From IMG/VR virus record IMGVR_UViG_3300009182_003652, positions 1-22,615 of that record: 22,615 nt of DNA, one strand, 5' to 3'. The notes below the pieces were generated by a model, which saw nothing but the letters and a program-made list of their open reading frames with translations, did no database searches and had not been told where the DNA came from. Each line of letters begins with the position of its first letter. The stretch's first letter is position 1. Below, one piece after another: positions 2,029-22,615 of this stretch. The stretch is from a virus. The position numbers were made by a program, and so were the translations under genes.

Positions 2029-2035
2029 TTCTTGG

Positions 2036-2043: not shown

Positions 2044-2067
2044 CATGCTTAACGGAGCGTGTACTCA

Positions 2068-2740: not shown

Positions 2741-2755
2741 ATTTTGCTGTATAAT
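2727..2755 (+). promoter_or_regulatory. Perfect sigma-70 promoter before the MoxR gene
   Basis: TTGACA at 2727-2732 and TATAAT at 2750-2755 are separated by exactly 17 bases, and TG at 2748-2749 gives an extended -10. Both hexamers are the full bacterial consensus. Transcription should start near 2762, giving a leader of about 48 bases before the ATG at 2810. This points to host RNA polymerase with its housekeeping sigma factor, as in early phage transcription. Confidence 0.85.
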
Positions 2756-2762
2756 TTAGACA

Positions 2763-2788
2763 TACTGTAGTGCACAGTGCCTACAGTA
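2763..2788 (+). promoter_or_regulatory. Dyad at the MoxR transcription start: operator or 5' mRNA hairpin
   Basis: TACTGTAG (2763-2770) is the exact reverse complement of CTACAGTA (2781-2788). The inner bases GC...GC continue the symmetry, with one bulged T at 2771. The element begins at about +2 of the predicted transcript. At the DNA level it lies where a repressor would block a strong promoter. In RNA it would be a 5' stem-loop ending before the ribosome site (AGAAAG, 2797-2802). The half-sites resemble those of E. coli LexA (TACTG/CAGTA), but their spacing is 16 rather than 10 bases. No protein can be assigned. Confidence 0.55.
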
Positions 2789-2809
2789 AATCTTTTAGAA
2801 AGCACTAAA

Positions 2810-3889: not shown

Positions 3890-3908
3890 AAAGAAAATAT
3901 TTTCTTTT
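3889..3908 (+). promoter_or_regulatory. AT-only palindrome abutting the VWA promoter, possible UP element
   Basis: AAAAGAAAAT is followed directly by its exact reverse complement ATTTTCTTTT, ending one base before the -35 box. Position and A/T-tract composition match a promoter UP element, contacted by the RNA polymerase alpha subunit. It has no loop and few GC pairs, and the T-run is part of the palindrome, so an efficient intrinsic terminator for the MoxR transcript is unlikely. Confidence 0.45.
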
Positions 3909-3909
3909 A

Positions 3910-3938
3910 TTGACAGAACTCATAACTTAATGTATAAT
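3910..3938 (+). promoter_or_regulatory. Perfect sigma-70 promoter before the VWA gene
   Basis: TTGACA at 3910-3915 and TATAAT at 3933-3938 have a 17-base spacer and a TG directly before the -10 (3931-3932). This is the same arrangement as the MoxR promoter, although the spacer sequences differ. Transcription would start near 3945, giving a short leader of about 16 bases that contains AGAGG (3951-3955) five bases before the ATG. Confidence 0.85.
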
Positions 3939-3945
3939 ATAATTT

Positions 3946-3961
3946 TAATTAGAGGTAATTA
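3946..3961 (+). promoter_or_regulatory. TAATTA-GAGG-TAATTA: ribosome site between two repeats
   Basis: The core of the ribosome-binding site (GAGG, 3952-3955) is flanked by two copies of TAATTA (3946-3951 and 3956-3961), each self-complementary. They could pair as a six-base A-U stem that presents GAGG in a four-base loop. The stem is weak, and the last A is the first base of the start codon, so it may be only AT-rich chance. Confidence 0.3.
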
Positions 3962-5763: not shown

Positions 5764-6405
5764 ATGAAACATATAGGAAAAATGAAAAACAACAACGCAA
5801 AGATTGTTGTTGTTTATAGAACCTTGCCTGGAGATTCAAAAAGTGCATTAGTTGTAGGCACTGGAAATATGAATGATTCTTGGCACGATTCATTAATGTC
5901 ATTGGTTCAAGAGTCTGCCGGTCAAGAAGCAAATGAATTGGCCGATGTATTATCGGTTCGAAAATTTCCTGATGGACGAACTATGCTGGAAGCATTGCAT
6001 CTGGGCGGGCATCTTAAAAAAGTACCAACCACAGGTGTAATTATGACACCATCATCAAATGCATCAATTGCTCTCAACGAACTTAATGATCTTATTGCTA
6101 AACAAAAAGGTATTACAGTCGATGAGCTGGCGGTTACTGATGGCAGCAGGCCTAACAAAAGGCCTGCTGTCAAAGATGATCCGACAAAAACTACTAGTTC
6201 TAGTGTAAATTCCGGCGAGGAAGTTTTATCGTCTGAAACTGTTACAGCAGAACCTGTGTCAATCACCGAAGAATTGAGTCCTACACAAATGAGATCAAAG
6301 GCGGATAAACTTTTCAAGGAAGCACAACTTCTTAGAAAAGAAGCGGACGCAATTGATCCACCAAAAAGTCGCAAAATTAAAGAAGTTGTAACGGACGCCA
6401 AATGA
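5764..6405 (+). CDS. Conserved phage protein of unknown function, 213 aa, two-part
   Basis: No function recognised. Residues 1 to about 125 look like a conserved folded domain, with MKHIGKMKNNNAKIVVVYRTLPGD at the start, DSWHDSLMSLVQESAGQEANELADVL in the middle, then RKFPDGRTMLEALHLGGHLKKVPTTGVIMTP. A Ser/Thr/Glu-rich linker (about 130-175) leads to a charged helix (ADKLFKEAQLLRKEADAIDPP) that could form a short coiled coil. The layout suggests an abundant binding or scaffold protein rather than an enzyme, but this is inference. AAGG at 5753-5756 is seven bases before the ATG. The junction between folded part and linker is encoded by a very stable hairpin (6142-6171). The stop overlaps the thymidylate synthase start. 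Confidence 0.8.
   Translation: MKHIGKMKNNNAKIVVVYRTLPGDSKSALVVGTGNMNDSWHDSLMSLVQESAGQEANELADVLSVRKFPDGRTMLEALHLGGHLKKVPTTGVIMTPSSNASIALNELNDLIAKQKGITVDELAVTDGSRPNKRPAVKDDPTKTTSSSVNSGEEVLSSETVTAEPVSITEELSPTQMRSKADKLFKEAQLLRKEADAIDPPKSRKIKEVVTDAK
6142..6171 (+). other. Strong GC-rich hairpin inside a coding region
   Basis: The arms GGCAGCAGGCCT (6142-6153) and AGGCCTGCTGTC (6160-6171) pair over 12 positions, 11 Watson-Crick plus one G-U, around the loop AACAAA. It is much richer in GC than its surroundings and falls at the domain-linker junction of the 213-aa protein. No U-run follows on either strand, so it is not an intrinsic terminator. It may be a pause, a processing site or translation-slowing structure. 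Confidence 0.6.
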
Positions 6406-7286
6406 TGCATCCTGAATTAGTTTATCTAGATGCTCTTAAAAACATCTTGGAAAACGGCGATGATAGACCAGATCGAACAGGCGTAGGTACTAGAAGTATT
6501 TTTGGACTTCAGCTTCGATTTGATCTATCAGAAGGTTTTCCCGCTGTAACTACAAAAAAATTAGCTTGGCGTTCAGTTGTTAGTGAACTACTATGGTTCA
6601 TTGAGGGCAGTGGGGATGAGTTACGTCTAAAAGAAATCCTTCATGGTAATAGAGCTAGCGATAAATCCACAATATGGACTGATAATGCACAGGCTACTTA
6701 TTGGGTCAATCGAAAACTTAAAAGAAGTGCCGGTGATCTAGGTAGAATTTACGGGGTTCAATGGCGTAGGTGGCGAAAACCACTAATTCGTATCAATAAG
6801 GTTATTCTTCAAAATTATGATCAGTTACTGGAATTAATTTCAGGTATCAAAGATGATCCATATGGCCGCAGACATATTATTTCAGCATGGAATCCTGGAG
6901 AATTAGATTTAATGGCGTTGCCGCCTTGCCACATAATGAGTCAGTTTTATGTTAGCAATGGTAGATTGAGTTGCCATATGTATCAAAGATCTGCAGATTT
7001 TTTCTTAGGTGTCCCATTTAATATTGCTTCATACGCATTGTTTACGCACATGATTGCACAAGTGTGTAATTTAGAAATAGGTGATTTGATTATTAGTTTT
7101 GGCGATGCGCATATCTACCACAATCATTTCGATCAAGTCAAACAACAGTTGACCCGAAAACCATTTTTATTACCCACATTGCAGTTAAATCCATCTATAC
7201 AGTCAATTACTGATTTTGAAATGGATGATGTTGAGTTAGTGGATTATCAACACCACGAGGCTATTGTAGCACCAATGGCTGTTTAA
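6402..7286 (+). CDS. thyA: Thymidylate synthase (ThyA/Td type)
   Basis: It converts dUMP to dTMP with methylene-tetrahydrofolate, supplying thymidine for phage DNA. The 294-aa sequence has the family hallmarks: DRTGVGT at 24-30, the nucleophile C176 in ALPPCH, the paired arginines R156-R157 in YGRRHI, phosphate and substrate residues in QRSADFFLGVPFNIASY (195-211), HIYHNH at 237-242, and the complete C-terminal APMAV. It is slightly longer than the E. coli enzyme (264 aa), like phage T4 Td. No intron or frameshift is seen. The start is an ATGATG pair overlapping the previous stop, and the second ATG (6405) is equally possible. No partner dihydrofolate reductase is in the window. The 3' end meets the opposing fibre gene with a four-base overlap of stop codons. 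Confidence 0.96.
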   Translation: MMHPELVYLDALKNILENGDDRPDRTGVGTRSIFGLQLRFDLSEGFPAVTTKKLAWRSVVSELLWFIEGSGDELRLKEILHGNRASDKSTIWTDNAQATYWVNRKLKRSAGDLGRIYGVQWRRWRKPLIRINKVILQNYDQLLELISGIKDDPYGRRHIISAWNPGELDLMALPPCHIMSQFYVSNGRLSCHMYQRSADFFLGVPFNIASYALFTHMIAQVCNLEIGDLIISFGDAHIYHNHFDQVKQQLTRKPFLLPTLQLNPSIQSITDFEMDDVELVDYQHHEAIVAPMAV

Positions 7287-8515
7287 ACTACCAGTATTTC
7301 AATAATACCAAAGCCCTCGGACTGCGACCCCAGGGCTTTTCCTATGACTGTTCCAGCAAATACATTGTAAAATGCAGCACATCCATATCCAGGTGTACTA
7401 CTAGTAACAATCAAGTCACCTTTTCTAACATGCCCCTGAACCTTGCAAGGAACTCGACCTTTTAGGGCAATTGCAGGGTGAGTTTTATCAGATCCGGCGT
7501 CTTTATTCATCAAATAAGCTGGATTTTTACTTACTACACCCACTACTCGTGTATCACCAAATTGATCAGTAACAGTGACTTCTTTGTCGCCGCCAATGAT
7601 CAATACAGTGCCTTCATCATATTCAGCATCTGCTTCATATCGTTCGGCTAAATCGGCATAATATGCTGACGAAGCAGTGGCATTTAATACCCCGGCATTG
7701 TAATAAAAAGAAGATGTAGTTACTAAAGAAACGCTACCGTTAGTGACATTTGACAATGGTACATAAAAATTAGATGAAATATTTGATTGTGATTTTACTG
7801 AAACATTTCTAGCATTGATTGCGTCAGCTGCGGTTCCCCAAAGCAAATAACCCGAAGTAGTAGTTACCGAAGATACTCCGGTGCTTGCATCAGCATTGGG
7901 TAATGTGATACCTTGCTTGATAACTGTAAAGGTATTTAAGCTGTTCCCGCTAATTAAATTAAGATTTTGTGGGGCGTATGTGGATTGATTTGAAAAAGAA
8001 ACCACTGGAGAATTTCCAACTTTACCAATAATTACTGAATTTTGAGTAATACCGTTAGCCGCAAAAATCCTACCATAAATCCAAGAACTAAACTGGCTAC
8101 CGTTAGTGGGGCCAATATTAACATAGTTACCTGCAGATGCTTGATATCCATAAAGAATACCATTGTCCCAAAACATATCACCATCTGCAGGGTTTGACAC
8201 TGTTGATGTTGATCCAACGGTAATGCTACCAATACCCTTAAATTGATTACCATCATAACTTATATAAAGCTGTCTACTAGTGCTATTAAACCATAATTGC
8301 CCTTGCAGAGGGTTTGATAATACTGGGAGAATGGGAACATTACTCGTTCCTGGAGATGAAAAATTTTCTAATAATTTTATAAAATTTTCTTCAAAAGGCT
8401 GTCCATATCCAGAAAAGTTTTTTCCAAGAAATGTAAGACCAGTGCTGTTATCTACAGTCCCGTCTGCAACCGAAATTAATTGACTTCCAGTAGTTAAATT
8501 TAATATGTATGGCAT
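7283..8515 (-). CDS. Phage fibre-like structural protein, 410 aa
   Basis: Probable virion appendage protein, likely trimeric. The N-terminal domain (1 to about 130) has VADGTVDNSTGLTFLGKNFSGYG, then two copies of a small beta unit: NPLQGQLWFNSTSRQLYISYDG (68-89) and NPADGDMFWDNGILYGYQ (108-125). A Ser/Thr/Asn-rich beta shaft with low charge runs to about 280. The C-terminal domain (282-410) has ADLAERYEADAEYDEGTV, GVVSKNPAYLMN and ALKGRVPCKVQGHVRKGDLIVTS. This type of ending occurs in marine phage fibres and resembles self-cleaving intramolecular chaperone tips (Peptidase_G2-like), but cleavage is not shown. The upstream gene encodes a relative sharing only the N-terminal domain. No clear ribosome site is seen before the ATG, two bases after the upstream stop, so coupling is likely. 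Confidence 0.85.
   Translation of the reverse strand: MPYILNLTTGSQLISVADGTVDNSTGLTFLGKNFSGYGQPFEENFIKLLENFSSPGTSNVPILPVLSNPLQGQLWFNSTSRQLYISYDGNQFKGIGSITVGSTSTVSNPADGDMFWDNGILYGYQASAGNYVNIGPTNGSQFSSWIYGRIFAANGITQNSVIIGKVGNSPVVSFSNQSTYAPQNLNLISGNSLNTFTVIKQGITLPNADASTGVSSVTTTSGYLLWGTAADAINARNVSVKSQSNISSNFYVPLSNVTNGSVSLVTTSSFYYNAGVLNATASSAYYADLAERYEADAEYDEGTVLIIGGDKEVTVTDQFGDTRVVGVVSKNPAYLMNKDAGSDKTHPAIALKGRVPCKVQGHVRKGDLIVTSSTPGYGCAAFYNVFAGTVIGKALGSQSEGFGIIEILVV
7310..7339 (+). terminator. Terminator-like hairpin after thymidylate synthase
   Basis: AAAGCCCT (7310-7317) and AGGGCTTT (7332-7339) form a perfect 8-bp stem with a 14-base loop, starting 24 bases after the thymidylate synthase stop. 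On the + strand it ends in CTTTT, a short U-run mostly within the stem. It lies inside the last codons of the opposing fibre gene. The position suits a terminator for the rightward operon, but the poor U-tail lowers confidence. Confidence 0.42.
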
Positions 8516-8517: not shown

Positions 8518-9306
8518 TTAGAATGTTGATAAAGTTGAAGTTCTTTTCCAGGTATTAATAGCTGTGCAAACGTAGATATAACTTGAATCAACTGCTATTT
8601 GCCCAATTGTACCAGTCGATGCCGATGTCAGAGGTGCTGGGTTTACAATAAAACCGTTAGTGGCCTGTATAGACCCAATAATATTTAAACCTTTTACTAT
8701 AGAATAAGCTGCGGAGCCAGCTAATGGAAATGTATTCGCACTGTCATTAGCACTGGCAACAAAAGTACTGTTACTTAACACGCCAACTACACTACCATTA
8801 TTTTCAAGTAATACAACTGGCTGTGATCGTGGTGTTGGAGTAGTGTTATCTAATATTGGCGTGTTTAAATTAGGTAATATCCAACCACTGGGGGATGATC
8901 TAGGATACGTGGGTATTGTTACAAAATTATTAAATGTATAAACATTCAATTGATTTTGGACAGTGTCATACCAAAAATCCCCAACAGCAACGCCACCAGG
9001 GAACTCAGAGGATACAGTAGCAGCACCTGCATGCTGCCATCCATTATTAGACCTATAGTTAGGATCGTATACATTGAGTCGCCTGTTAGTAGAATCGTAC
9101 CACAACTGGCCTGTTAACGGATTTATTGGTCTGCTGTGATTTGGACTAGATGAATTTGTCAATAAAGTCACTAAATTTTGATTTTGGTAAATCCCGTATC
9201 CCTTAAAATTTCGTCCAACAAACGCCACACTTTTAGAAGTATCAACAGTTCCGTCGGCCACTATCAATATTGGCGTACCATCATTATACGTTATTGCAAA
9301 AGACAT
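8518..9306 (-). CDS. Phage fibre-like structural protein, 262 aa
   Basis: Probable virion appendage protein related to its downstream neighbour over the first 130 residues: IVADGTVDTSKSVAFVGRNFKGYG (15-38) aligns with that protein, followed by the repeated beta unit INPLTGQLWYDSTNRRLNVYD (61-81) and VAVGDFWYDTVQNQLNVYT (106-124). The middle is a Ser/Thr/Asn-rich shaft. The C-terminus, TGTIGQIAVDSSYIYVCTAINTWKR (231-255), is a short beta cap common at fibre ends in marine phages and unrelated to the neighbour's tip. The ATG is preceded by a strong ribosome site GGGGGA, which overlaps the last codons of the upstream gene. The shared N-terminal domain likely attaches both proteins to the same virion structure. 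Confidence 0.83.
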   Translation of the reverse strand: MSFAITYNDGTPILIVADGTVDTSKSVAFVGRNFKGYGIYQNQNLVTLLTNSSSPNHSRPINPLTGQLWYDSTNRRLNVYDPNYRSNNGWQHAGAATVSSEFPGGVAVGDFWYDTVQNQLNVYTFNNFVTIPTYPRSSPSGWILPNLNTPILDNTTPTPRSQPVVLLENNGSVVGVLSNSTFVASANDSANTFPLAGSAAYSIVKGLNIIGSIQATNGFIVNPAPLTSASTGTIGQIAVDSSYIYVCTAINTWKRTSTLSTF

Positions 9307-9948
9307 TTAAAATCCCCCAGTCAAACTTTGTACTCGAATAGTATAATCAATTTGTAATAATCGATTTAGAGATTTTTGAATAGGATGAAAAATCACATGA
9401 GTTAAATACGGGCCAGTACCAGTGCCGTCTGGACCGTATGCTCTAATACCAATTTCATCAAACACAAACGTTCCATCACTGTTTACAGTACTATCAAATG
9501 CCTGCTGTCCGCTTGGTTCTCCAAAATCTAATAAACAACTGACCAAAATATCGCTGTATGGCACTCCTGGTAAATGACGATATTGCATGAAATTCCTAGC
9601 AGGATCCAAATTGGCACTATTAGTACCTGCAATGCCATAAGCATCAACCACTTTATAATAAGTTTTATTGTATAAACCAGAAGTAGTACCAATTACATTA
9701 GGAGTAAGATATGTTATAATGCCAGTAGCATCAACTCTAGAACCCCCGTTACCAAACGCCATACCTTCAATCATGCCAATACCTTGATTGGATAAACTTT
9801 GTGCCATTGCTATGCTAAAATTTTCGTAATTAATAGCATTAGGCTGATCTCGAAATACTTCCTTAGATATTGGATCATAAATTTTAATATGCCCCCGAAC
9901 TGCTATAGTACAATTTTCATTAGGGGCTTCATGAGATTTATTAGTCAT
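9307..9948 (-). CDS. Phage virion structural protein, 213 aa
   Basis: Probable tail or baseplate-associated protein, judged from its place between fibre genes and the giant structural gene and from its Gly/Asn/Thr-rich beta composition. Visible features: an N-terminal NCTIAVRGHIKIYDP strand region, the helix YENFSIAMAQSLSNQ, IEGMAFGNGGSRVDATG, and a C-terminal segment with DEIGIRAYGPDGTG and LNRLLQIDYTIRVQSLTGGF. I know no precise function. The start was set at the ATG at 9948 because GGA lies ten bases before it and a late promoter motif predicts the RNA start near 9963. An in-frame ATG at 9963 would add five residues but would have no leader. It is separated from the giant gene by a 28-base gap. 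Confidence 0.8.
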   Translation of the reverse strand: MTNKSHEAPNENCTIAVRGHIKIYDPISKEVFRDQPNAINYENFSIAMAQSLSNQGIGMIEGMAFGNGGSRVDATGIITYLTPNVIGTTSGLYNKTYYKVVDAYGIAGTNSANLDPARNFMQYRHLPGVPYSDILVSCLLDFGEPSGQQAFDSTVNSDGTFVFDEIGIRAYGPDGTGTGPYLTHVIFHPIQKSLNRLLQIDYTIRVQSLTGGF

Positions 9949-9968
9949 ATTTGATTTTTCCATAGTAA

Positions 9969-9976: not shown

Positions 9977-12900
9977 TTATATTAAACCGCCCCGTGATTT
10001 AACTTCGGTAGAATTTGATCCATAAAAATAATGCGAAGGTAATACTGCGGGTCCTGATTTTAAGAAATTAGCAACTGTACTAGTGCTGTCCAATAACGAT
10101 GTACTAGCATTAATTGATATAACATCATTCCAAGAGGAGCCAACTTGACGTTTGACTATTGTTAGTTGTGTGCCTGTACTAATTTTAACTGTTGCAGTAT
10201 TTAAAATTAGTTGCTGAGTGCCTGTGTTGATTAAAAAATCAGGCAACAATCTTTTCATTCCAGAATATACAAATGACGGAACTGCCTGAATATTGTATTG
10301 ATTATTATCAGTACATACCCAAATCTCATTTGTATCTTGACAGATATATGCATCACCCAAGTAAATGGTTGCAGTTGATAATGATAATGCAGTTGGTACA
10401 ACCCCTTTAATTTGAGTTTGTAATATGCCATCATAAGACACTGTAGTGTCGTGATAAAAAGATTGATCTTTTTTCAGCAATCTTCCGCCATAGTATACTT
10501 CAATTTGATCTTTTGCATCAATGCTGGCTGATGATATTGAATACGATCTTGCCTGATATATTTCTGTTCCAATGTATGAGTCATTTGGCAACGTGGATTT
10601 GGTAGTCATTAATTTTATACCGTCACATTGTATGGTAGCAGATGTTTTTGGATTAACCCAATTATACACTGTAGTGGTACTTATTATGTATGTGTTTTCC
10701 AAAGCTGCACTAGTAAAAGTATTCTGTACTAGTACGGTATCTGAATATGGTGTAGCTGGCAACACATTAATAGTTTGATTAGCACCCTGATCTAGAACAA
10801 TAGTGCCTATATCCAAATGCGCTGCTGGTGCAGTTCCACCAGTGGCCCTGCGTAATTGACTCAAAACATTATCAATATTTTTAAAGAATTCAATCCGTTC
10901 CCCCGCAATCAATACAACTCCCGGTATATTCCTATCAGAATCTGGCTGACTTAATATACTTCCATCAGCAACATAAATTGAGTTACTGGCGGGAGTTAGC
11001 GGGGATGTTAGATACGTGGAGTCGTCGTTGGACAATCTAGTAAATGAGGTTTTTCCTAGAAAGTCCTTAGAAATTCGATAACCTAACGTTTTTGCCGATC
11101 TGCTGGGGTCGGCAAAACTCATTATAAACACCGTGTCCTCATTCGTTAGGTTAATTGCATCACTAATTAGTACTGTTAAATTATCGCCCAACATTTGATA
11201 ATCGATATTGTTTACTAACGATATTAATCCAGTAGAAGTAGTGTCTGCTTCCACCCACAAATAGTTTGAGTTCAGCACCGGATAACTTAGTTTATATGTT
11301 CGAAGAGGACTTCCCACAAAACGTTGTGACACCATTCCTAAACTATCCTGTATTGCAAATGTAGTTATTTTTAAAGTAGCAGAAGTCAAATAACTATAAT
11401 TTGGTGTTAGTAATAGCGAACTACCGTCAGTAGTGACCATAAAATCATAATCATATGGCACTATACCATTAGTATTTGATACCGCATTAGAAATATTATT
11501 ATAATAAAATGTTTCTATCGCCACTTTACTACCAACAACAGGCGTATTGCCAGATGATGCAGGTTGACTAGTTAATGTCACTGAATTATTAGAAATTGTA
11601 TAGTCTAATGTATAACTCAACGGTAGCCCATTTAGATATACTTGAATATTTGAAGCATTTCCAGTAACAGCAAATGACGAGGTTGACGATACAATTGGAT
11701 AACTGGCTAATGCAACGTTTGTCGTAGTTACTGTGTAATACGTAACATACGGCGGACGCAGTCTTATAGGGTTGCCTTGATTTGGAATTAACTCAAGAAT
11801 AATTTGAGAACTAAACGGTCCTAAATTGGCAGGCATATTTGTTAAACTTATACTATTGGCATAACCATTTTGATTATAAGTTCCCAATTGAGCACTACCG
11901 GTAGAATACACTTGCTCAGTCAATTTATTAAATTTTGGATTGGTAGAATTAAAAAACCAAGATTGAATTAAATGTGACCCAGTAGGTAAATTATACACCA
12001 AAACCGATACCCTAGAATCCCTAATACTAGCCGTATTTAATGAATAAAATATAGGTTGTCCTGGCACATTAGGGTAAACTGTGTTACTAATTGGTAATCC
12101 GTCAACAGTCACATATGCCCCGCCAACTTCATTATAGTTAACCATACCAATTATTGTGGTAGCACCAACTGTTGTTGTAACTATTACTGGAAAAGATTGG
12201 GTATCTATAATGCCTAACCCAGAATAATCTGCATCGCCCACCCCTATTATTGAATACCCCAATATGCCACCAGTTTTTTGTGGCGGTACTGTCAATGTTT
12301 TGTTAGTCCAATTAATATTAAATTGAGTTGAAGTCGTAAAGGTTGTAGATGTAACGTATGTCAATAGATTATTGTTTATTGTTACTACAATACTAGCAAC
12401 TGTGGGTGGCATGACTGACAGGTTAAATGTTTGTGTCAACGTAGAACTATATACTCGGTTACTACCGTTGAAAATTGTTGGTGTCTGATATGCAGATTTA
12501 GTGTAAACATCTATCGCCAAAGAATCAACTGAAAGACCCGGCACGAACTCCTCTAATGATTGTCCTGTTGCAGTGGATACAAATCCAAATGATCCGTCGA
12601 TTATATTGTCAGTGTTGTCAATACCCAGTGCATTTATTAGTCGGCCGCCCCCCCAAGAAGGGTAGTCTGATGTACTAGGATTGAGTATAGTGTCCGCCAA
12701 CTGTCCAGAATTAACATTTGAAAAACCAGTACCCTCATATTGTCCGCCAATAATTTTTCTAGGGTCCACTACTCCTGACATTAATTGGCCAAGGTCGTTA
12801 CCCGGCATGGCGTCAGATGGAGCATAAAAATTCTGTATTCTCTCAGCTGCTGACATCAATTCAGTGCTTTTTTGATAAATGACTGTCAAATTAAAAGGCT

Positions 12901-15900
12901 GAGTGGTTTCTAATTTTAATAATTTAAGATAGCTATATTTTTTATTATAACTCTGATAACGCTCAGTAGTATATGTTATAGTATACATTGAATTAAAAAC
13001 TAACACACCATTTATCTGCACTTGAATTTTTGATTTATCAGCTTGAGCTAGCCAACTCAATTGGAACAATGTCTCGCCTGGTTTTCCTAAAAAATTATCA
13101 ACCACAGTCAAATTGCCAAGTTGATCTCGGGCACTAATTCTGTCAAATAATATTCTAGAACTTGTTTCTCGCCAAGGCACAGTAATCAATTTTATGTCAG
13201 CTGTATAACTAGCAGTAGTAACTATCCCAGAAGATGTATTATAACATTCTGGAAAAGTAAAATTACTCAAAGGTATTGGTGCAAAGACATATTGTTGAGA
13301 CGTTGAATTGAATATAACTGGATAATCAAAATCGGTTATTGTGGTATTAGGTGCTTCAAAATTTTCAAATTCTGTGGTAAATTGACGTACTTTAGTATGG
13401 TAAGGTTTGACTTCATTTACAAAATTTTCATAATACGCAGCATCCTGTAATTTATATACAGGAGGCTGAGTTAGAGTTCCTGCATAATTTACCACATCAA
13501 TTAATGATGTTTTAAACGCCCAGTTGACAAATTTTTGTTCTGAGAACACATATTTCACTGCTTTAAAAACTAATAAATTCCAATTTTCTGATAATTCGTT
13601 AATAAACAAATCATTTTTTAATGCATGCAAAATATTAGAAATTTCAATATTAGGAGTTTGATCAAACAATGATTGACTATAGGCTTGTGAGTTATCCCAT
13701 CCGTAGGACAGATCCCATAAATTATTGTTTAATTGAATAGTTCCGTTTTGTACATAGATAACATTATAATTAGCATTAAATGTGCCAACGGTGCCTGATG
13801 CTGCGGGTGTGACTATAATATAATTACCGTCACCTCGATTTTTTATTTTTACATATTGTCCACCCAGCACAGTCAGTTGATTTAATTGATAAACAGTATC
13901 TATAATATGTGACAATTTTTTATAAATTTCGAAATCGTCACTAGCCCAATCAACATATCTCCAATATAGAAGTGTATTGTAACTTTGGGTCCTAATTTTA
14001 TTCCAAATTCCGTTGCTATTTTGATAGACGGCCCACCCACCGTTTCCATTAGAATCTGAAATTACAGTCGCAGTGGTTATCTGCAAATCAGTGATTTCTA
14101 TCAACGCAGTGGAGTCCTCAACTACTACCCAAGACGATGTAGTAGGCTGGGGCGGCAATTCTTGATCTGATAGACGTTGAAAACTTCGATTTCCAGTAGT
14201 CTGATTTTTGATCAATACACTATTAGCAAAGTCTACAATGTTTCGTAAGGCTTTTGATCTATCATCAAATAGGGTCTGTTGTGGCCGAATATCTATTCCA
14301 AATTTTGCCCTATTAGATAATTTGGGGTCAGGCACTGTATTTCCCAAACTATCATTACCAATAAGGCTATCAAATAGTTTCTTTTCAATTATTGGAGGAA
14401 TTTTACCTAATCCCTCTTTGACCAATTGCCACTCTACATGGTTTAATGTTTTATTATTTGAATTATCAATTGTAAAATTTAAACTAATCTCATCCGACCG
14501 AAGTTTTACAGAAGCATTAGCTATTATTAAAGAACTAGTTGAAATAAATGCAACATGCTGTATTCCTGAAGATGTGGGGTTAGCAATATAACTGGCTACA
14601 GAAAACGCACTTATTTTTCTATTTTTTACATCAGGCACTGTTACTTTATTCTTTACCCAATAATAATATATATTGCTTAAACTTCCAACAACATTATCAT
14701 ACACTTGTTTTATTGATATTGCACTGTTATCAACATATTTAGGTTGCCCGCTAATACCCTGAGTCATGCCACTAGGTGTATCTGCAATAGCACTCCATTC
14801 ACTGGGCAATAACGATGATCCAACCCATTCGTATACGTCAATACTGGCTCCAGGAAATAATTTTCCCCAGTTATTCTTTCGATATTCCAATTCTCCCTGC
14901 TCGTACCAGATAAATTTGGCGGTGCTCACATCCCACCATAATTTTCCTATCTGCTGATCAATCCAACTGGTGTTGGGGTTTACATTAACTCCCTCGCCAC
15001 CCAGGCTATAAATTGCGGGGTCGGCTGATGTTATATATGTTAACTCTTCCTCAGCAACTCCCAATATTTTTCCTTTTAACGGGTCTACAAAATCAAAATA
15101 ATTTATAATCTCATCTGACACAGTATCAATTAACCGTATTTGTTTTACGGAGTTGGGTAATAAAAGATCATCTTGTATTCGATCAGTTTTCCAACCATCA
15201 ATAGATTTGTCAATTTTAGAAAATTTATAAACACTGCCAGTATTTTGATTAGACACCGCAGGCGCACCAACTAATATTATATCGTTATCAATAGCCACTG
15301 ATGTGCCAAAATTGGTCAATGATGAAACAGATTCCGCAAATTCATTTATTTCTTGGCTAAATTTAAAATTTTTATTTTTTCTATTATAAAGATAAGCAGT
15401 TCCTGAATAGTCCTCAGATTCAATAAATCGCGTTGAATTAAAATCAAAAGTAGTAAGATTATCAAATATAGTAATTACAGTAGTATTTGTACCCATTGCA
15501 GTTACTACCAATGCATTTGACAAAGTATTAATATCCAAAGCCATACCAAAATACATTTTACCGTTTGGTATCAAATTGGTTAATACTTGAGTTAACGTAT
15601 AAATTCCACCAGTATAGGTATTATTATAAATTGCGACTGCACCAAAACTGGTATTTATATTTACGGCATTGGGTGCAGATATTGCCAAATATGATCCGTC
15701 GCCACTCATGGTCATTGCTTGACCGAAATTGCCAGTATTGCCAAACGGGCTATATAGAGTCTGTATAATGGTAGTTCCGCGTATTATGGAAACAGTTCCT
15801 GAATTTTGTGGTCCGTTAAACGGTGCACTAACAGCCAAGTAATTTGCATTATCAGAACCAACAATTGAATATCCCCATTGCGCATTGGCATCTAAAGATA

Positions 15901-18900
15901 CAATAGACGTCACTGTGGTGGCCGGACTTATTAATAATGAATTGGCAGTGGCAGTTACTATATATGAATATACTTTATTAATTGCTGGCGCGCCGACCAA
16001 CATTTGTTTAGTACTGGTGTTACGCTGAACAAAAATACTAGATCCAAATGTGCCTGAAGATACATTATTAGTAAGTGTATTGATTACGGTAGATTGATAT
16101 GTTAAATCAATACTGATGATTTGAAGCATACCTTTATTGTCATATGCTCCAGGAGCACCGGCAAATACTAAACCAAATGGACTATTTTTATTGGGATACT
16201 GAACATCATCATAAAATACTACAGTACCTAATTTGTTATTGCCACTAGTATTTGGCATTGCGTAAAACGCAATTTCCTCTAATGTTGAATTTTTGTAAAC
16301 AACTATTGCTCCTGATGTACCATCACTTGTATTTTTATATAAAGGCGAACCTACTACCAAAATATCTGAATTTTTTCTTAAACTAATACTAACTCCGTGA
16401 CCATCTGATAAAGAATGGTTCCCGTATATTATGTTACTGAAAAAATTGTTTACTTTTTTATATACTGCCCACCCATCATTGCCAGTGCCGTTCTCAGAAT
16501 CTATCCAAAGTCGAGTGCCAAGACTGTATTGATATAAAATATCATCAGATGGAATATTATCAAATTTTGGAAATCTTAACGACTCAAATGTAAACAAAAA
16601 TCCTGGAAAAGTAAAATATGCGGACGAAGCAAACGAGTTGCTATTGACGATAACAAACTGTGTTGAAGATACAATTGATTCAACGGTATAGACCCCGTCT
16701 AGCAAACTGTTAATTCCAACAATAGATACAATTTGACCGGCTATCAAATTATGCGGGTTAGAAGTGCTAATAGTTACATTATGATAAATGGTGTCGGACA
16801 CAGCATCAACAATGTCTGCGCTTAATAGTTTATATCTTAATACATCCCAATCACCATTTGGTTTAAACCCTAACCAAATGGTGGTGCCCTCCAATAAATT
16901 TTTAGAATTTGCAATATCTAATAAACTAGTTTGATTATATGCAGTAGCATCAACATCATCAAGTCGAACATACCCTGCATGAATAAATTTAAATGCGTTA
17001 TTTAAATTTGTAGTATGTATTCTAGGAATAGAACCCATTTTTGGTGAAATTGTAAATTTACCAGGATCAATATACTGCACTGGAGTAAATGTTGTTTCTG
17101 ATACCGGTTTTTCAAATGTAATAATTTGAGGATTTTCTATAAAAGACCCCTCAATTAACGGAAATTCAAATTCTTGAACGGATGTGAAATTACCATATTG
17201 GCCCACTCTCATTGCCCAATTTTCGTAAATTTGAATATTATTTTTTAAATTTTGAGATCTAGCCTTCGACAATTTTAGAATAGCATTTTTTGTACCTTTA
17301 TCTCTGATATATCCTTGATAAAATTTATATTGAGATATTGTATTTGGAATAACATTATTAAGATAAACCCTAGGCAAATAACCAATTAAATTTTGCGCAG
17401 ATTTTTGTTGCCCAATATCAAAATTATCAATATCTAAACTATAAAAATCATTAAATTGATTAATTTTATAATCAAAATTAGGTAGTAACCCTGCTATAGG
17501 TTTTTTTATAAGTTGTTTCCATTTGGTAAAATCAAAAACTTTAGATCGATCAATATTTGTTCTTGCACTATAATAAAAATTATTATATCGAACAATACTG
17601 CTAGCAAGGTAAGATGCATTAGGTGCCCAATCAGTAACGGATGCTGCATCGTAAACAAAACCTGGAGAAGAAAATTCTCCGTTCCACTTGGCTGTTCGGA
17701 AACCAACCATTTTTATACGTTTTTGTCGGTTGCCGGTTTGTACATCATAAACTATATCTCCAAAAGTGGTAACATTTTTAAAAATTATTCCATGCTCTTT
17801 TTGTATGGAATTCAATCTTGCAAAATATATTCCATCATCAGTGTTTATTGTAGCGACAGTAAAAACACCATTTTGTCTAGTTATAAAAAGATTTTTTTTA
17901 TCAAATGGTGTGCCATCTGCTTTAGTTAAACTGTAGTCATAAAAGCTGTTGAAAATGTTGTCAACTATCGACTTATTAAATTGATATGTGAACTGATCCG
18001 CAAACGGACTCACAGTTAGTATACTATTGTTGACCCAATTCTGAGTAGTCCAAAACAAAAATTCATTTGCGCTCAAATTCCAATCAACAACTTGCCCTAA
18101 ATCATTATTAAATTGATTGAATACAAAACCTTGATCAACTAACCAGGTTCCATAACCCAATATCAAATCATACACATCCTGTACACGTGAAAAAGTAGTT
18201 CCGTACGGAATTCTAATAGCATTGGTGTTGAAACTTGCTACTAGTTGGACAGAAACACCCCCAGATGTTGGCAATGATGTCAATTTTGAAAACAAGGTTG
18301 AATCAAATATAGGTCCTGCTCGGTGGGATACTGCTACTCGATAGAATGAAGATCCGTATTGAACAATTTGATCCTTTTGATAAAATGTATTAGCCGGTGT
18401 CGATGCTGCAGAAATTGTATCCAATGTACTAAGAGAAGATGCTGATGTATAACCAGGAACCCAATTGACGTAGTCGCTGCTAACACCGCCAATAGTGGTA
18501 ACTGGCGTTGCAGAATTCCTAGTTGCTGGATAGTATGTAAAATAAGGGTTGTCCCTGTCGTAACCCCTAACAACAAAAGAATCATTTCCTATTCGTTGTA
18601 TAATTATACCAGAAATTCCTATACTGTTAATTGGATTACTGACATTAAGAATTGACGAATAATCAATATTTGGAAGTAGCGCACCTATAGAATTGGTGGT
18701 TGGCTCGTAGGCATCAATAAAAAATTGTGTTGTATTTTTACTTAAGAATCCGCCAACTTTATAAAATAAATTAAAATTGACATATTTTAAATCATTTCGA
18801 AGTTTTAAAATATAGTCAACATCCCGCTGTTGTCCAATTTCACTAACAAAAACACTAAAACCGCTGTTTAATGGAACTCCAAAATCTCCATGGATCGGCA

Positions 18901-21900
18901 AATCGGCTATTCTTAAAAATGTTTGGCCATTATTATTAGAATAAACCCATTGATCAATTTGATTAAGCATCATATTTGCTGGGTCATACATTAAAGACGA
19001 ATACGATGAAGGTTGGGTCAACGCCAACAATTTTTGCAACGCAAACGGCCAACTGCTACTTCGCCTCCACGCAGTTTCCGCAGGCCCTTGATTACCAACT
19101 GCCCAGCTATGACTGCCAAAGGTATCAGGGAATGGTAAGATTCCAATGTCCATTGGACTTAATAAATTTCCAAATGTGTCAACTGGAATGATGTCTAATA
19201 AATTTGGCCTAGCATAAAACTTATCAATGACTACTCCGTTAGCAGTAACTGCAATTTTTCCTTGTGCAAGATCTGACCATAATATAGAATTGCCAGATGT
19301 ATATGGTGCGCTGCCATATTGGGCGTCCCACCATTCAGGTTTTTGAGCTAATCCCAGCATTTCCCAAGGATTTGTGTGCGGTCTGTCAGTGTCGTAGTAG
19401 TATTTAAAAATTGATCTCCAAGACCCAATAGTAGGATAATTCCAAGTAAATGAATTATTTTGATCATACGTATTATTAGTTGTATAATCAACACCATAAT
19501 TTATGGCCCATTTGATAAAATCTTTTTCTAGTATAGAAGTAATTTCTGAAAAAGAATATTTGCTGATTTGTAGAGAATCTCGATAAAAACCAGGATCAAC
19601 ACTGTGTATGTCAAAGAGCTCTTTACGATATTTTACCTTTAAATTATTAAAAATCCGTAGTTCATATTCTAAAACAATGTCGTCGCGATAATCGCCAAAT
19701 GCAGGCATTATACTGCCGTCGTGGCCCTGTATCACCATTGTTGGGGTGATATAGGTACCATCTAAAAATTTAGATGGTACAACACTGGGGTATAACCCCA
19801 GTTTAGTAGGAGTTGGCGGAATATAACTTTTTTTAGTGTCCTGATAGTAATTTATTGATATTTGATCCCCAACTGCCAAAGGTTTTAAAATATTAACAAA
19901 CGGATCAATACTATCAAACGTATAATCAATTGCTGACGTTAATTGAATATTGTTAATGTAAACCAATATGCTAGTATTAGACGGTACTTCAAGTGTAAAC
20001 TCTATTGGTAGCGCATATGACACAATATTAGTATTTTTAACGGTATAGTTTAAAATAGTTTTATTTTGTCCATGACCCAACATATCTGACAAATAAAACG
20101 GATCTCTACTTGTCTTGCCAGAATTAAGTGTTTCTAAAACTGCGTCAAGAGCGGATGATGCATGTAGATTTGATGAAGTTTGAGATATACCGTTAATTAG
20201 ACTTAATTTAAAATAATTATATTCTTCAGAGCATTTTGTGATGGCATCAATAACACTATGTTCTCTTTTGCCAATAAACATCATGGCAAAACTAATAGGA
20301 TTATGATTTGAAATTAATCGAGTACCTTGTTTATTTTTTTGATCTTGCAAATCACCATGCACCAATAAATCTAAATTACTGTTCAATGGATTATTAGCCA
20401 GTCCCAATGGGATATTATAGTAGTTGGAATTAATTACTTTTTCAATTGTTGGTGATATTAGTGGCTGCCAAACATTACTCAAATTACCATTTATTTTAAA
20501 ATAAGTTTGACTAGCGTTGATAGTCACCGCTGCATTTACATTGTTAACAGCATTTATAACCCCTTTAGAAAAATAATTTTCAAATAATATACTTGATTTA
20601 ACGTTGTTGTTCAAATATTTTAATTTTAACCCCAACACAGTATCAGTTATTGTATCAGAATCGCTAATGCTATAACCAAAAATTTTGTTCCCAGCAAAAT
20701 TAGTCAAATGACTAGTTTGATCTGAATAACTAATTCCATTGCTATCAAATAGATCAAATAATGGCCCTTCATTTAAAACGGTATGCTGTTGACCATATAC
20801 CCATTGATTTCCGTTAAACCACCAAGTTGTCCCAGCATATTGATTGCCGCTTTTAATTAATACTGATGTCCCAGCAGCTACTGTACCTGCTGGAACTAGT
20901 GCCACTTTTGAATTTATAAAAAATACTTCAAATATTGTGTTTCTAACCAACGGGTCTTCGTCGGCAGCAAAAATTATTCTATTGCGATAAGATACGGTTA
21001 CCCCATCAATAATTATTGAAGTAAGAGTAGTAGTATTACTAGATATTGGACTACCTTCAACACCATTGATTATACCAAATGCATCCGTTATTCGATTATC
21101 AATCAAATCAACTGGGTCTGTGGCCGTAGAACCAAAGTTATACAATTGTATGTTTGGATTAAATTCAATGATAGGCCGAACTGCTCTATTTGAAATAGGT
21201 ATAATCACATCTTTGTTGTTCAACATAGAACTAGTTACTATTACCTCTTTACTCACCCAACGATTATATCTAGACCATGGATTTTTATCGTTACTGGCTC
21301 TGTTAATAGTAATATATTCAGGAATCAACGCCTCAGTTGCATTTATTTCATCATATCCCAAAAAGTCATAACCGTAAGTATTTGAATCATATAAATCTGT
21401 TATCGGGGCAGCAAATTTTTCAGGGGTGTACAGTGAGTTTATCGGGACTAGTACAATAGATGTACCAGTACCTTCTACGAAAAATTCATTATATTGATAT
21501 TTGGCATCAACCTGAACTCCGCTAAATGTTACCAGCATACCGTTCAATAAAGTTACATCAGTTCCATTAACAGTCACTGTGGCAGATTGTTTGCCTACAA
21601 TTTTTTCATCAACATTTAAATAACTTTGATCAATATCAATTAAAAACGACCCAGACGGTAACCAAAAATACTGCTCATAATTAATAAATTTATCCAAATC
21701 AATTTGCGGATAAAACGGATAAACACTACTGCTGAACAACCTGTCAAAATTATCAGTATAGCCACCCTTTAACGAGATCTCATTAGATAAATCGTCGATG
21801 GTTGTTACTGACTGCGCATCTCCATTAATATTATACGTAACCAACGCAGGTTCTAATTGGTAAGTTTGTCGTAAACTGCTGGATTCTTGAATATAAGAAT

Positions 21901-22615
21901 CAGAAGGGTCCCAGGTAGGTAATTTTGAAAAATCTACATAGGACGTGGTTGTGGATGAAGTTTTATAAACCACTGTACTGCTAGTAATATAAGTGGAAGA
22001 AGAAATTAAAACTGTGGAGCTAGATCTAGTAATATCAAAACTCCCTGGGCCAGCATAGTGCCAATTTCCACCATTTTGAGTGCTATAAAACACATGGCTG
22101 GAATTGTCGGCGATCATATCTTGACTGAGTTGAATGCCTGTACCCAATGTATCTACACTCTCAACGACATTCGTGTTAATAAAGGCATTAGTAGAAGATG
22201 TAGCAATACCAACCACTACACCGACATCGTCCTGCCCAAGACCTTTTACGGTTCTAGGAATTTTTTGATATATAGTTTCTACATACTGATTAGTTCCATC
22301 CGAATACATCGTAGTTTCATAATCATACGCAGGAATAGTGGGTATATTATCAGACTCTTTATAATGCGACCCTTGGAAACGCATCCTAAAAAATTGAAAT
22401 GTGCCTGTAGTTCCTTGCTGAACAAAATGACCAGGAATTTCACCAGTGTTCAACGGTGTTGTACCGTCGTTACCACCATAGCCCTCCCACAAATCAGTAT
22501 ACATGGAATAGATAGTTGGATATGGCAAAACTCCAAATGTAATGGGAGAATAAACTGCTGATCCTTCACCAAACGTCAAAACACCATTAGTACCAATGTA
22601 TACCTTAGTAAATAT
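9977..22615 (-). CDS. Giant virion structural protein with FG-GAP beta-propeller, 5' end outside window
   Basis: The frame is open from the right edge to the stop at 9977: 4212 residues with no stop. Upstream codons before the in-frame TTG at 22579 are also open (IFTKVYIGTNGV), so the true start lies beyond 22615. It is probably a huge tail, fibre or baseplate protein. Blocks in order: NGVLTFGEGSAVY (about 22600-22545); PEYITINRASNDKNPWSRYNRW (about 21260-21340); GHDGSIMPAFGDYRDD (about 19680-19735); GPAETAWRRSSSWPFALQ (about 19040-19100); two WxxxxxY-type carbohydrate-binding-like units (18280-18475, 17508-17630); seven FG-GAP repeats (15221-16425); LWWDVSTAKFIWYEQ (about 14885-14940); NEVKPYHTKVRQF (about 13380-13425); MPGNDLGQLMSGV (about 12765-12810); beta-sandwich-like modules (10000-12900); and GERIEFFKNIDNVLSQLRR (about 10850-10910). 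I associate many of these blocks with giant proteins of marine T4-like phages. No catalytic motif was recognised. Confidence 0.9.
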   Translation of the reverse strand: MFTKVYIGTNGVLTFGEGSAVYSPITFGVLPYPTIYSMYTDLWEGYGGNDGTTPLNTGEIPGHFVQQGTTGTFQFFRMRFQGSHYKESDNIPTIPAYDYETTMYSDGTNQYVETIYQKIPRTVKGLGQDDVGVVVGIATSSTNAFINTNVVESVDTLGTGIQLSQDMIADNSSHVFYSTQNGGNWHYAGPGSFDITRSSSTVLISSSTYITSSTVVYKTSSTTTSYVDFSKLPTWDPSDSYIQESSSLRQTYQLEPALVTYNINGDAQSVTTIDDLSNEISLKGGYTDNFDRLFSSSVYPFYPQIDLDKFINYEQYFWLPSGSFLIDIDQSYLNVDEKIVGKQSATVTVNGTDVTLLNGMLVTFSGVQVDAKYQYNEFFVEGTGTSIVLVPINSLYTPEKFAAPITDLYDSNTYGYDFLGYDEINATEALIPEYITINRASNDKNPWSRYNRWVSKEVIVTSSMLNNKDVIIPISNRAVRPIIEFNPNIQLYNFGSTATDPVDLIDNRITDAFGIINGVEGSPISSNTTTLTSIIIDGVTVSYRNRIIFAADEDPLVRNTIFEVFFINSKVALVPAGTVAAGTSVLIKSGNQYAGTTWWFNGNQWVYGQQHTVLNEGPLFDLFDSNGISYSDQTSHLTNFAGNKIFGYSISDSDTITDTVLGLKLKYLNNNVKSSILFENYFSKGVINAVNNVNAAVTINASQTYFKINGNLSNVWQPLISPTIEKVINSNYYNIPLGLANNPLNSNLDLLVHGDLQDQKNKQGTRLISNHNPISFAMMFIGKREHSVIDAITKCSEEYNYFKLSLINGISQTSSNLHASSALDAVLETLNSGKTSRDPFYLSDMLGHGQNKTILNYTVKNTNIVSYALPIEFTLEVPSNTSILVYINNIQLTSAIDYTFDSIDPFVNILKPLAVGDQISINYYQDTKKSYIPPTPTKLGLYPSVVPSKFLDGTYITPTMVIQGHDGSIMPAFGDYRDDIVLEYELRIFNNLKVKYRKELFDIHSVDPGFYRDSLQISKYSFSEITSILEKDFIKWAINYGVDYTTNNTYDQNNSFTWNYPTIGSWRSIFKYYYDTDRPHTNPWEMLGLAQKPEWWDAQYGSAPYTSGNSILWSDLAQGKIAVTANGVVIDKFYARPNLLDIIPVDTFGNLLSPMDIGILPFPDTFGSHSWAVGNQGPAETAWRRSSSWPFALQKLLALTQPSSYSSLMYDPANMMLNQIDQWVYSNNNGQTFLRIADLPIHGDFGVPLNSGFSVFVSEIGQQRDVDYILKLRNDLKYVNFNLFYKVGGFLSKNTTQFFIDAYEPTTNSIGALLPNIDYSSILNVSNPINSIGISGIIIQRIGNDSFVVRGYDRDNPYFTYYPATRNSATPVTTIGGVSSDYVNWVPGYTSASSLSTLDTISAASTPANTFYQKDQIVQYGSSFYRVAVSHRAGPIFDSTLFSKLTSLPTSGGVSVQLVASFNTNAIRIPYGTTFSRVQDVYDLILGYGTWLVDQGFVFNQFNNDLGQVVDWNLSANEFLFWTTQNWVNNSILTVSPFADQFTYQFNKSIVDNIFNSFYDYSLTKADGTPFDKKNLFITRQNGVFTVATINTDDGIYFARLNSIQKEHGIIFKNVTTFGDIVYDVQTGNRQKRIKMVGFRTAKWNGEFSSPGFVYDAASVTDWAPNASYLASSIVRYNNFYYSARTNIDRSKVFDFTKWKQLIKKPIAGLLPNFDYKINQFNDFYSLDIDNFDIGQQKSAQNLIGYLPRVYLNNVIPNTISQYKFYQGYIRDKGTKNAILKLSKARSQNLKNNIQIYENWAMRVGQYGNFTSVQEFEFPLIEGSFIENPQIITFEKPVSETTFTPVQYIDPGKFTISPKMGSIPRIHTTNLNNAFKFIHAGYVRLDDVDATAYNQTSLLDIANSKNLLEGTTIWLGFKPNGDWDVLRYKLLSADIVDAVSDTIYHNVTISTSNPHNLIAGQIVSIVGINSLLDGVYTVESIVSSTQFVIVNSNSFASSAYFTFPGFLFTFESLRFPKFDNIPSDDILYQYSLGTRLWIDSENGTGNDGWAVYKKVNNFFSNIIYGNHSLSDGHGVSISLRKNSDILVVGSPLYKNTSDGTSGAIVVYKNSTLEEIAFYAMPNTSGNNKLGTVVFYDDVQYPNKNSPFGLVFAGAPGAYDNKGMLQIISIDLTYQSTVINTLTNNVSSGTFGSSIFVQRNTSTKQMLVGAPAINKVYSYIVTATANSLLISPATTVTSIVSLDANAQWGYSIVGSDNANYLAVSAPFNGPQNSGTVSIIRGTTIIQTLYSPFGNTGNFGQAMTMSGDGSYLAISAPNAVNINTSFGAVAIYNNTYTGGIYTLTQVLTNLIPNGKMYFGMALDINTLSNALVVTAMGTNTTVITIFDNLTTFDFNSTRFIESEDYSGTAYLYNRKNKNFKFSQEINEFAESVSSLTNFGTSVAIDNDIILVGAPAVSNQNTGSVYKFSKIDKSIDGWKTDRIQDDLLLPNSVKQIRLIDTVSDEIINYFDFVDPLKGKILGVAEEELTYITSADPAIYSLGGEGVNVNPNTSWIDQQIGKLWWDVSTAKFIWYEQGELEYRKNNWGKLFPGASIDVYEWVGSSLLPSEWSAIADTPSGMTQGISGQPKYVDNSAISIKQVYDNVVGSLSNIYYYWVKNKVTVPDVKNRKISAFSVASYIANPTSSGIQHVAFISTSSLIIANASVKLRSDEISLNFTIDNSNNKTLNHVEWQLVKEGLGKIPPIIEKKLFDSLIGNDSLGNTVPDPKLSNRAKFGIDIRPQQTLFDDRSKALRNIVDFANSVLIKNQTTGNRSFQRLSDQELPPQPTTSSWVVVEDSTALIEITDLQITTATVISDSNGNGGWAVYQNSNGIWNKIRTQSYNTLLYWRYVDWASDDFEIYKKLSHIIDTVYQLNQLTVLGGQYVKIKNRGDGNYIIVTPAASGTVGTFNANYNVIYVQNGTIQLNNNLWDLSYGWDNSQAYSQSLFDQTPNIEISNILHALKNDLFINELSENWNLLVFKAVKYVFSEQKFVNWAFKTSLIDVVNYAGTLTQPPVYKLQDAAYYENFVNEVKPYHTKVRQFTTEFENFEAPNTTITDFDYPVIFNSTSQQYVFAPIPLSNFTFPECYNTSSGIVTTASYTADIKLITVPWRETSSRILFDRISARDQLGNLTVVDNFLGKPGETLFQLSWLAQADKSKIQVQINGVLVFNSMYTITYTTERYQSYNKKYSYLKLLKLETTQPFNLTVIYQKSTELMSAAERIQNFYAPSDAMPGNDLGQLMSGVVDPRKIIGGQYEGTGFSNVNSGQLADTILNPSTSDYPSWGGGRLINALGIDNTDNIIDGSFGFVSTATGQSLEEFVPGLSVDSLAIDVYTKSAYQTPTIFNGSNRVYSSTLTQTFNLSVMPPTVASIVVTINNNLLTYVTSTTFTTSTQFNINWTNKTLTVPPQKTGGILGYSIIGVGDADYSGLGIIDTQSFPVIVTTTVGATTIIGMVNYNEVGGAYVTVDGLPISNTVYPNVPGQPIFYSLNTASIRDSRVSVLVYNLPTGSHLIQSWFFNSTNPKFNKLTEQVYSTGSAQLGTYNQNGYANSISLTNMPANLGPFSSQIILELIPNQGNPIRLRPPYVTYYTVTTTNVALASYPIVSSTSSFAVTGNASNIQVYLNGLPLSYTLDYTISNNSVTLTSQPASSGNTPVVGSKVAIETFYYNNISNAVSNTNGIVPYDYDFMVTTDGSSLLLTPNYSYLTSATLKITTFAIQDSLGMVSQRFVGSPLRTYKLSYPVLNSNYLWVEADTTSTGLISLVNNIDYQMLGDNLTVLISDAINLTNEDTVFIMSFADPSRSAKTLGYRISKDFLGKTSFTRLSNDDSTYLTSPLTPASNSIYVADGSILSQPDSDRNIPGVVLIAGERIEFFKNIDNVLSQLRRATGGTAPAAHLDIGTIVLDQGANQTINVLPATPYSDTVLVQNTFTSAALENTYIISTTTVYNWVNPKTSATIQCDGIKLMTTKSTLPNDSYIGTEIYQARSYSISSASIDAKDQIEVYYGGRLLKKDQSFYHDTTVSYDGILQTQIKGVVPTALSLSTATIYLGDAYICQDTNEIWVCTDNNQYNIQAVPSFVYSGMKRLLPDFLINTGTQQLILNTATVKISTGTQLTIVKRQVGSSWNDVISINASTSLLDSTSTVANFLKSGPAVLPSHYFYGSNSTEVKSRGGLI
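10000..12900 (-). repeat. C-terminal series of beta-sandwich-like modules in the giant protein
   Basis: Several segments share the pattern 'hydrophobic strand, short linker, (V/I)xVxxNxxxL, then YT/YxxSxxxVTL': IQVQINGVLVFNSMYTITYT, IVVTINNNLLTYVTSTTF, IQVYLNGLPLSYTLDYTI and IEVYYGGRLLKKDQSFYHD. A related copy (ILVYINNIQLTSAIDYTF, about 19900-19960) lies far upstream. Divergence is high and boundaries are approximate. They probably build an extended arm. Confidence 0.5.
11090..11117 (-). other. 9-bp perfect hairpin within the giant gene
   Basis: TTTTGCCGA (11090-11098) and TCGGCAAAA (11109-11117) are exact reverse complements with a ten-base loop. The coding strand there encodes SFADPSRSAKT. 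No adjoining U-run makes a clear terminator. It could be chance; it is listed because similar, longer stems occur elsewhere in this gene. Confidence 0.4.
15221..16425 (-). repeat. Seven FG-GAP-type repeats forming a predicted beta-propeller
   Basis: About 400 residues contain seven units of the form FGxSVAIxxDxxxLxVGAP followed by a GTVxxY strand. Clear cores, N to C: GVSISLRKNSDILVVGSP; a second with FGLVFAGAPGAYDNKG; FGSSIFVQRNTSTKQMLVGAP (inexact spacing); GYSIVGSDNANYLAVSAP; FGQAMTMSGDGSYLAISAP; FGMALDINTLSNALVVTAM (degenerate); FGTSVAIDNDIILVGAP. This matches the FG-GAP_2 style rather than integrin alpha repeats, because the calcium loop DxDxDG is absent. Seven units fit one closed propeller, a common ligand-binding fold. 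It is an uninterrupted part of the giant reading frame. Confidence 0.78.
16852..16883 (-). other. 12-bp perfect hairpin within the giant gene
   Basis: CACCATTTGGTT (16852-16863) and AACCAAATGGTG (16872-16883) are exact reverse complements with an eight-base loop. The region encodes TTIWLGFKPNG. A second, AT-only 10-bp stem with a five-base loop lies close by at 16985-17009. No U-run follows, so termination is unlikely. Confidence 0.5.
17508..17630 (-). other. Carbohydrate-binding-like module, second copy, in the giant protein
   Basis: The pattern is WAPNASYLASSIVRYNNFYY, then SARTNIDRSKVFDFTKWKQL. A leading Trp, the spaced SIVRYNNFYYSA core and a closing FDFTKW match the short aromatic-rich layout of chitin-binding (CBM5/12-like) and similar phage-fibre modules of about 40 residues. 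Sugar binding is inferred from layout only. Confidence 0.5.
18280..18475 (-). other. Carbohydrate-binding-like module, first copy, in the giant protein
   Basis: This unit begins at WVPGYTSASSL and, after a longer insertion, continues with FYQKDQIVQYGSSFYRVAVS and ends FDSTLFSKL. The QIVQYGSSFYRVAVSH core corresponds to SIVRYNNFYYSARTN of the second copy, about 650 bases further along the gene. The insertion makes this copy less certain. Confidence 0.42.
19755..19802 (-). other. Two tandem hairpins within the giant gene
   Basis: GTACCATCTAAA and TTTAGATGGTAC (19755-19780) pair over 12 positions around a two-base centre. Three bases on, ACTGGGGT and ACCCCAGT (19784-19802) form a perfect 8-bp stem with the three-base loop ATA. 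In the mRNA the GC-rich stem comes first. The encoded peptide is KLGLYPSVVPSKFLDGTY, just before the conserved GHDGSIMPAFGDYRDD block. Confidence 0.58.
22380..22615 (-). other. Adhesin-like N-terminal block of the giant protein (partial)
   Basis: The visible N-terminal end reads VYIGTNGVLTFGEGSAVY, then PYPTIYSMYTDLWEGYGG, with a later FFRMRFQGSHY. The order 'strand-(T/S)NGxLTFG-...-P.I.....D.w.G' resembles the start of NIDO-like extracellular domains and other beta-sandwich adhesins. It is cut by the window edge, so only a resemblance can be claimed. Confidence 0.35.

Follow-up and report, generated by a model that had tools for sequence, protein, structure and literature searches.

A predicted seven-bladed FG-GAP beta-propeller inserted into the giant virion protein of uncultured jumbo-phage relatives

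The giant virion protein and its gene neighborhood

The window analyzed here is the whole of a viral DNA record of 22,615 bases, a fragment of a genome. Its minus strand carries an open reading frame of 4,212 residues (22615-9977) with an open 5' end, in which residue i begins at base 22615-3(i-1), together with a run of smaller genes:

9977..22615, minus strand: giant virion structural protein, 4,212 residues, homolog of phrog_10938 by PHROG match; 5' end outside the window
16886..18328, minus strand: conserved upstream flank of the giant protein, residues 1430-1910, by conservation among relatives
14126..15127, minus strand: conserved downstream flank, residues 2497-2830, the query used for finding relatives
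9307..9963, minus strand: 218-residue gene directly downstream of the giant open reading frame, phrog_11259
8518..9306, minus strand: 262-residue gene with weak tail-protein PHROG matches
7283..8515, minus strand: 410-residue gene with weak tail-fiber and virion PHROG matches

The plus strand, read in the direction opposite to the tail genes, carries thymidylate synthase and 5'-3' exonuclease genes (6402-7286 and 354-1343). Positions 2777-5235 hold a gene for a MoxR-like AAA ATPase and, after it, a DUF2201 gene (metallopeptidase plus VWA-like); below threshold, the ATPase matches the bpMoxR of MoxR-vWA-beta-propeller systems.

In profile searches the giant protein matches the virion structural protein family phrog_10938 with an E-value of 1.2e-289, and the homology spans four stretches (965 bits) that take in most of the protein length. 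Homologs occur in the jumbo phages 121Q, GAP32, RaK2, XaC1, PA5oct, Vibrio 2.275.O, and SCTP-2; named members of the family are 121Q gp582, RaK2 ORF070, GAP32_230, PA5oct gp355, and SCTP-2 gp140. The upstream neighbors of the giant gene lie beyond the window, and the order of baseplate genes is taken from the isolates 121Q, GAP32, RaK2, and XaC1, where gp25-like and gp6-like baseplate genes lie immediately upstream of the giant-protein gene. The PA5oct gene comes after two genes for baseplate wedge proteins, and its product bears a mass-spectrometry note in the sequence record. The virion protein gp245 of phage phAPEC6 (381.88 kDa) is listed after the baseplate wedge protein gp244 (PMC7247149, Table 1); the matching size and position suggest that it is a further homolog. 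Gene order had raised the idea that the giant protein is a wedge protein of the T4 gp7 type, but profile searches and structure prediction lent it no support: profiles of three regions of the protein retrieved nothing convincing from the PDB, and the model of residues 225-1370 was poor, with low confidence and no significant structural match to known baseplate proteins. A sub-threshold CBM_5_12-like stretch lies in the upstream flank, at residues 1663-1684.

The beginning of the open reading frame is unusual. Residues 1-208 (window 21990-22615, TNGVLTFG...DLWEGYGG) share 43-54% identity with a stretch close to the C-terminal end of this protein in some relatives (for example, residues 3818-4010 of locus L168), and the N-terminus that is usual in the family, as found in loci L014-L016, is lacking. 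The cause is either the relocation of a domain or a chimeric contig end.

A seven-bladed propeller of FG-GAP type

The original prediction proposed a seven-bladed, calcium-free FG-GAP propeller at 15221-16425, in the middle of a phage structural protein. The flanks are indeed homologous to the phrog_10938 virion protein, and the location is correct; the extent was underestimated, with the domain running slightly further, from about 16450 to 15176.

15176..16450 (approximate), minus strand: inserted seven-bladed FG-GAP beta-propeller, residues about 2056-2480, from motifs, profiles, AlphaFold, and Foldseek
16250..16408, minus strand: blade 1, residues 2070-2122, the least conserved blade, from model and repeats
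16061..16234, minus strand: blade 2, residues 2128-2185, from model and repeats
15908..16051, minus strand: blade 3, residues 2189-2236, from model and repeats
15752..15880, minus strand: blade 4, residues 2246-2288, from model and repeats
15578..15730, minus strand: blade 5, residues 2296-2346, from model and repeats
15344..15559, minus strand: blade 6, residues 2353-2424, with a long hairpin bearing FD..TTFDxxxTxF, from model and alignment
15176..15313, minus strand: blade 7, residues 2435-2480, the unit passing Pfam FG-GAP_2, from Pfam and model

A motif pattern finds seven FG-GAP-like units, all within the span originally given, with starts at residues 2064-2436 and none elsewhere in the 4,212 residues; when the 410-residue segment was shuffled 2,000 times, the mean was 0.11 units and the maximum two. 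The FG glycine of all seven motifs is kept in at least 90% of 52 aligned relatives. Profiles of single blades recognize one another, with probabilities of 98% for blades 4 and 5, 97% for 1 and 4, 96% for 3 and 5, and 93% for 2 and 7; most other pairs are strong as well, the weak ones including several that involve blade 6 or blade 2, the most divergent blade in this comparison. The expected affinity to FG-GAP_2 (PF14312) holds, in that blade 7 alone passes the Pfam cut-off in the window (28.5-37.7 bits against 23) and the family is detected in 43 of the 52 relatives; Pfam gives FG-GAP_2 only, and no hydrolase family, for the propeller region. DxDxDG calcium loops are missing from the window propeller, as predicted, and a single weak match to them occurs among the 52 relatives.

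The AlphaFold model, built with the alignment of 52 relatives, has seven blades of four strands each (pLDDT 88.2, pTM 0.88), with a long blade 6 hairpin whose tip is of low confidence. Foldseek against the PDB ranks integrin alpha heads first (4.1e-11), and sequence-profile searches do the same, matching integrin alpha-4 at 5.7e-14; both the profile comparison and the structure prediction thus favor the integrin-like propeller originally proposed. The remaining structural matches are WD40-type propellers, and glycosidases are absent from them. Alignments to seven-bladed propellers reach target-normalized TM-scores of 0.60-0.71; judging from these and from the strand count, the ring is probably closed. 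FG-GAP-like folds occur among predicted viral structures, some of them from phages.

The recipient hairpin and its empty counterpart

The phrog_10938 profile gave a first sign of an insert, since its positions 1464-2139 (676 positions) are stretched over 1,102 residues of the window protein. The site is marked by one arm of a hairpin:

16460..16510, minus strand: upstream arm of the recipient hairpin, residues 2036-2052, LWIDSENGTGNDGWAVY, from comparison with PA5oct

At the corresponding place the PA5oct protein has WIDS..NDWAV, then a short turn where the window has its propeller, and then a strand leading toward the conserved DP.KG region. When the window flanks are joined (residues 1995-2056 and 2473-2600), they align to PA5oct at 1e-30 and ungapped at the junction; they also align significantly to three further loci (L096, L095, and L097). 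Because the joined flanks run across the PA5oct junction, the recipient site is read as the turn of a beta-hairpin. That the propeller is an inserted domain in the giant protein is close to certain, and by these alignments it replaces a hairpin turn that is left empty in PA5oct.

The SCTP-2 protein (L008) carries a different, unrelated insert at residues about 2110-2350, in the neighboring loop just before the WAVY strand and next to the propeller site; its position suggests that the hairpin region tolerates insertions. By eye this insert looks LamG-like, but an assignment to LamG found no match in Pfam or among PDB sequences.

Distribution and origin of the propeller

Used alone as a query, the propeller retrieved nothing from viral contigs in a close-relative search, and among phage records it matched only Sinorhizobium phage Phosso. 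Relatives were therefore collected through the conserved downstream flank, for which viral contigs contain at least 584 related stretches; three different lead sequences served as queries, and the 80 best matches of each were retained. Among these best matches, 144 distinct loci have both anchors and 129 of them contain the propeller, a proportion that is not a population frequency, since query similarity determined the ranking of loci. The 129 comprise 125 loci matching the propeller HMM and four recognized by inspection (L122, L162, L225, and L239), of which L162 was also found by Pfam. The propeller is absent from all seven cultured phages examined.

In a tree of the flanks only (unrooted and made by quick search), one branch with SH-aLRT support of 99 splits 72 rows with the propeller from 13 without it; the propeller state requires one change, against a mean of 12.3 when states are shuffled. 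On this flank phylogeny the propeller is of single origin in the sampled family. A gain rather than a loss is indicated because the group without the propeller spans diverse isolates, and no loss was seen in the 72 rows of the clade. In marine metagenome-assembled genomes (MAGs), three of four related contigs match the propeller HMM. MAG contigs with relatives were binned as Porticoccaceae, Pelagibacter, Betaproteobacteria, and Rickettsiales; since these may be binning errors, no host is claimed.

Divergence, loop inserts, and the blade 6 motif

The propeller evolves faster than its flanks: mean pairwise identity among 52 relatives drops from 0.578 and 0.616 in the two flanks to 0.377 in the propeller, and is lowest in blade 1 (0.268). 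Large inserts decorate the loops of some relatives. Locus L050 has one of about 290 residues between blades (2300-2588), and L092 has two, of about 140 (2172-2313) and about 420 residues (2426-2845); the inserts of L050, L092 (the larger one), L036, L108, and L091 have no Pfam match. Repeated helical-looking units of the form TRAxVLxAYxxNLDAPLYPxExxIRYWM make up the inserts of L050, L092, and L076 (residues 2288-2437). The giant protein of L162 (residues about 2030-3056) has a YHYH domain (E 2.9e-37) embedded among its FG-GAP repeats.

The best conserved polar residues, as far as the alignment tells, sit in one hairpin of blade 6 and not around a central pocket across blades. Its motif FD..TTFDxxxTxF includes D2391 and T2395, both present in 52 of 52 relatives; this conservation rests on the 52-row alignment, and of the 129 propellers only 77 were matched when the motif was written as a strict regular expression.

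Comparison with known propellers

Integrin alpha heads (alpha-4, alpha-IIb, and alpha-M) share the seven FG-GAP blades and give the best profile and fold matches; the window propeller differs from them in having no DxDxDG loops, about 15% identity, and apparently no beta-subunit partner, and it is not an integrin. With proteins of the FG-GAP_2 family it shares the FG and GAP motifs, a score above the cut-off, and the absence of calcium loops; here, however, the repeats apparently form one closed set of seven within a virion protein. The giant protein of Phosso (L013, 4137-15215) has 3,692 residues consisting largely of FG-GAP repeats; as a long array of many repeats, it resembles the window protein in these repeats only. 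Prasinovirus MntV1 and other giant eukaryotic viruses encode FG-GAP propellers with a proposed role as an attachment aid (PMC11467894); unlike the window protein, these belong to viruses of eukaryotes and are stand-alone or in other contexts. The same 2024 paper describes FG-GAP as very rare in viruses (PMC11467894), and the open-access papers searched contain no mention of FG-GAP together with jumbo phages.

Among phage proteins, the phi11 receptor-binding protein and PhiKZ gp131C (baseplate periphery) contain propellers, the receptor role of gp131C being speculative (PMC4901313). The likeness lies in their being baseplate beta-propellers with proposed receptor roles; the phi11 propeller is five-bladed, and neither protein is presented as FG-GAP in the passages that describe them (PMC4901313). 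The closest known counterparts of the giant protein itself, the phrog_10938 proteins of isolates, are homologous and encoded beside a baseplate wedge gene, and those examined are without the propeller.

Possible roles of the propeller

The proposed architecture is a seven-bladed, calcium-free FG-GAP propeller inserted in the hairpin turn of a giant protein of the 121Q/RaK2/PA5oct type. The two strands of the hairpin would hold the propeller, a rigid disc, off the protein body at the tail end; its face loops could touch a glycan or protein of the bacterial surface during adsorption, and loop insertions in relatives might tune what is bound. Surface exposure of the propeller is probable. Fast change and loop decoration suggest that one face contacts a partner that itself changes, for which the host surface is the simplest candidate, and they fit the host-surface or sugar-binding head of the original prediction; whether such binding is the main job of the propeller we consider an even question. 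Clade-wide retention, the conserved core, and the blade 6 motif fit a docking or structural role equally well. Retention in 72 rows and the conservation of blades 2-7 and of the blade 6 motif are less typical of a host-range determinant, and the isolates examined do without the propeller.

Docking or scaffolding inside the baseplate, by binding another virion protein such as a tail fiber or wedge subunit through the blade 6 hairpin, is accordingly a plausible alternative, if one we hold at somewhat below even likelihood. It would account for a propeller kept in every row of the clade, for seven FG glycines and a D2391/T2395 pair conserved across 52 relatives, and for a hairpin that is long with a low-confidence tip; in the nozzle of phage SU10 a seven-bladed propeller is structural, and a fiber docks on a blade loop (PMC9509320). 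A docking surface sits less easily with a propeller that changes much faster than its flanks and tolerates very large loop inserts, or with related virions that are built without it. Some beta-propellers act on glycans, and a head serving as an enzyme or lectin-like depolymerase for host polysaccharide would agree with this and with the sub-threshold CBM_5_12 match in the same protein; it is nevertheless improbable, given that Pfam recognizes only FG-GAP_2 in the propeller region, that Foldseek retrieves integrin heads and WD40-type propellers instead of glycosidases, and that, as judged from sequence, the most conserved polar residues are grouped in one blade 6 hairpin without ringing a central pocket. 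The contig is fragmentary and its first 208 residues are oddly arranged, features that would suit a chance pattern or misassembly; for the propeller region this explanation is refuted for practical purposes by seven motifs where 0.11 are expected and by more than 120 distinct loci that carry this propeller at an identical position.

Implications

FG-GAP propellers and the giant virion protein family are each known; their combination, the precise empty site, and the clade-wide single origin appear new. The broadest reading has one ancient insertion of an integrin-like head in the tail-end giant protein define a large, uncultured clade of jumbo phages, apparently widespread in natural waters, and has the head, diversified by domains inserted in its loops, serve as the main adhesion module of the clade; it is tentative and, taken whole, rather doubtful. 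The gain of a head resembling that of animal integrins by a phage family can be mapped here to one domain insertion, with a relative in which the site is empty. Should the head bind hosts, it would point to the site of host-range determination in a common, uncultured group of jumbo phages; should it dock other virion parts, it would mark a new element of the baseplate.
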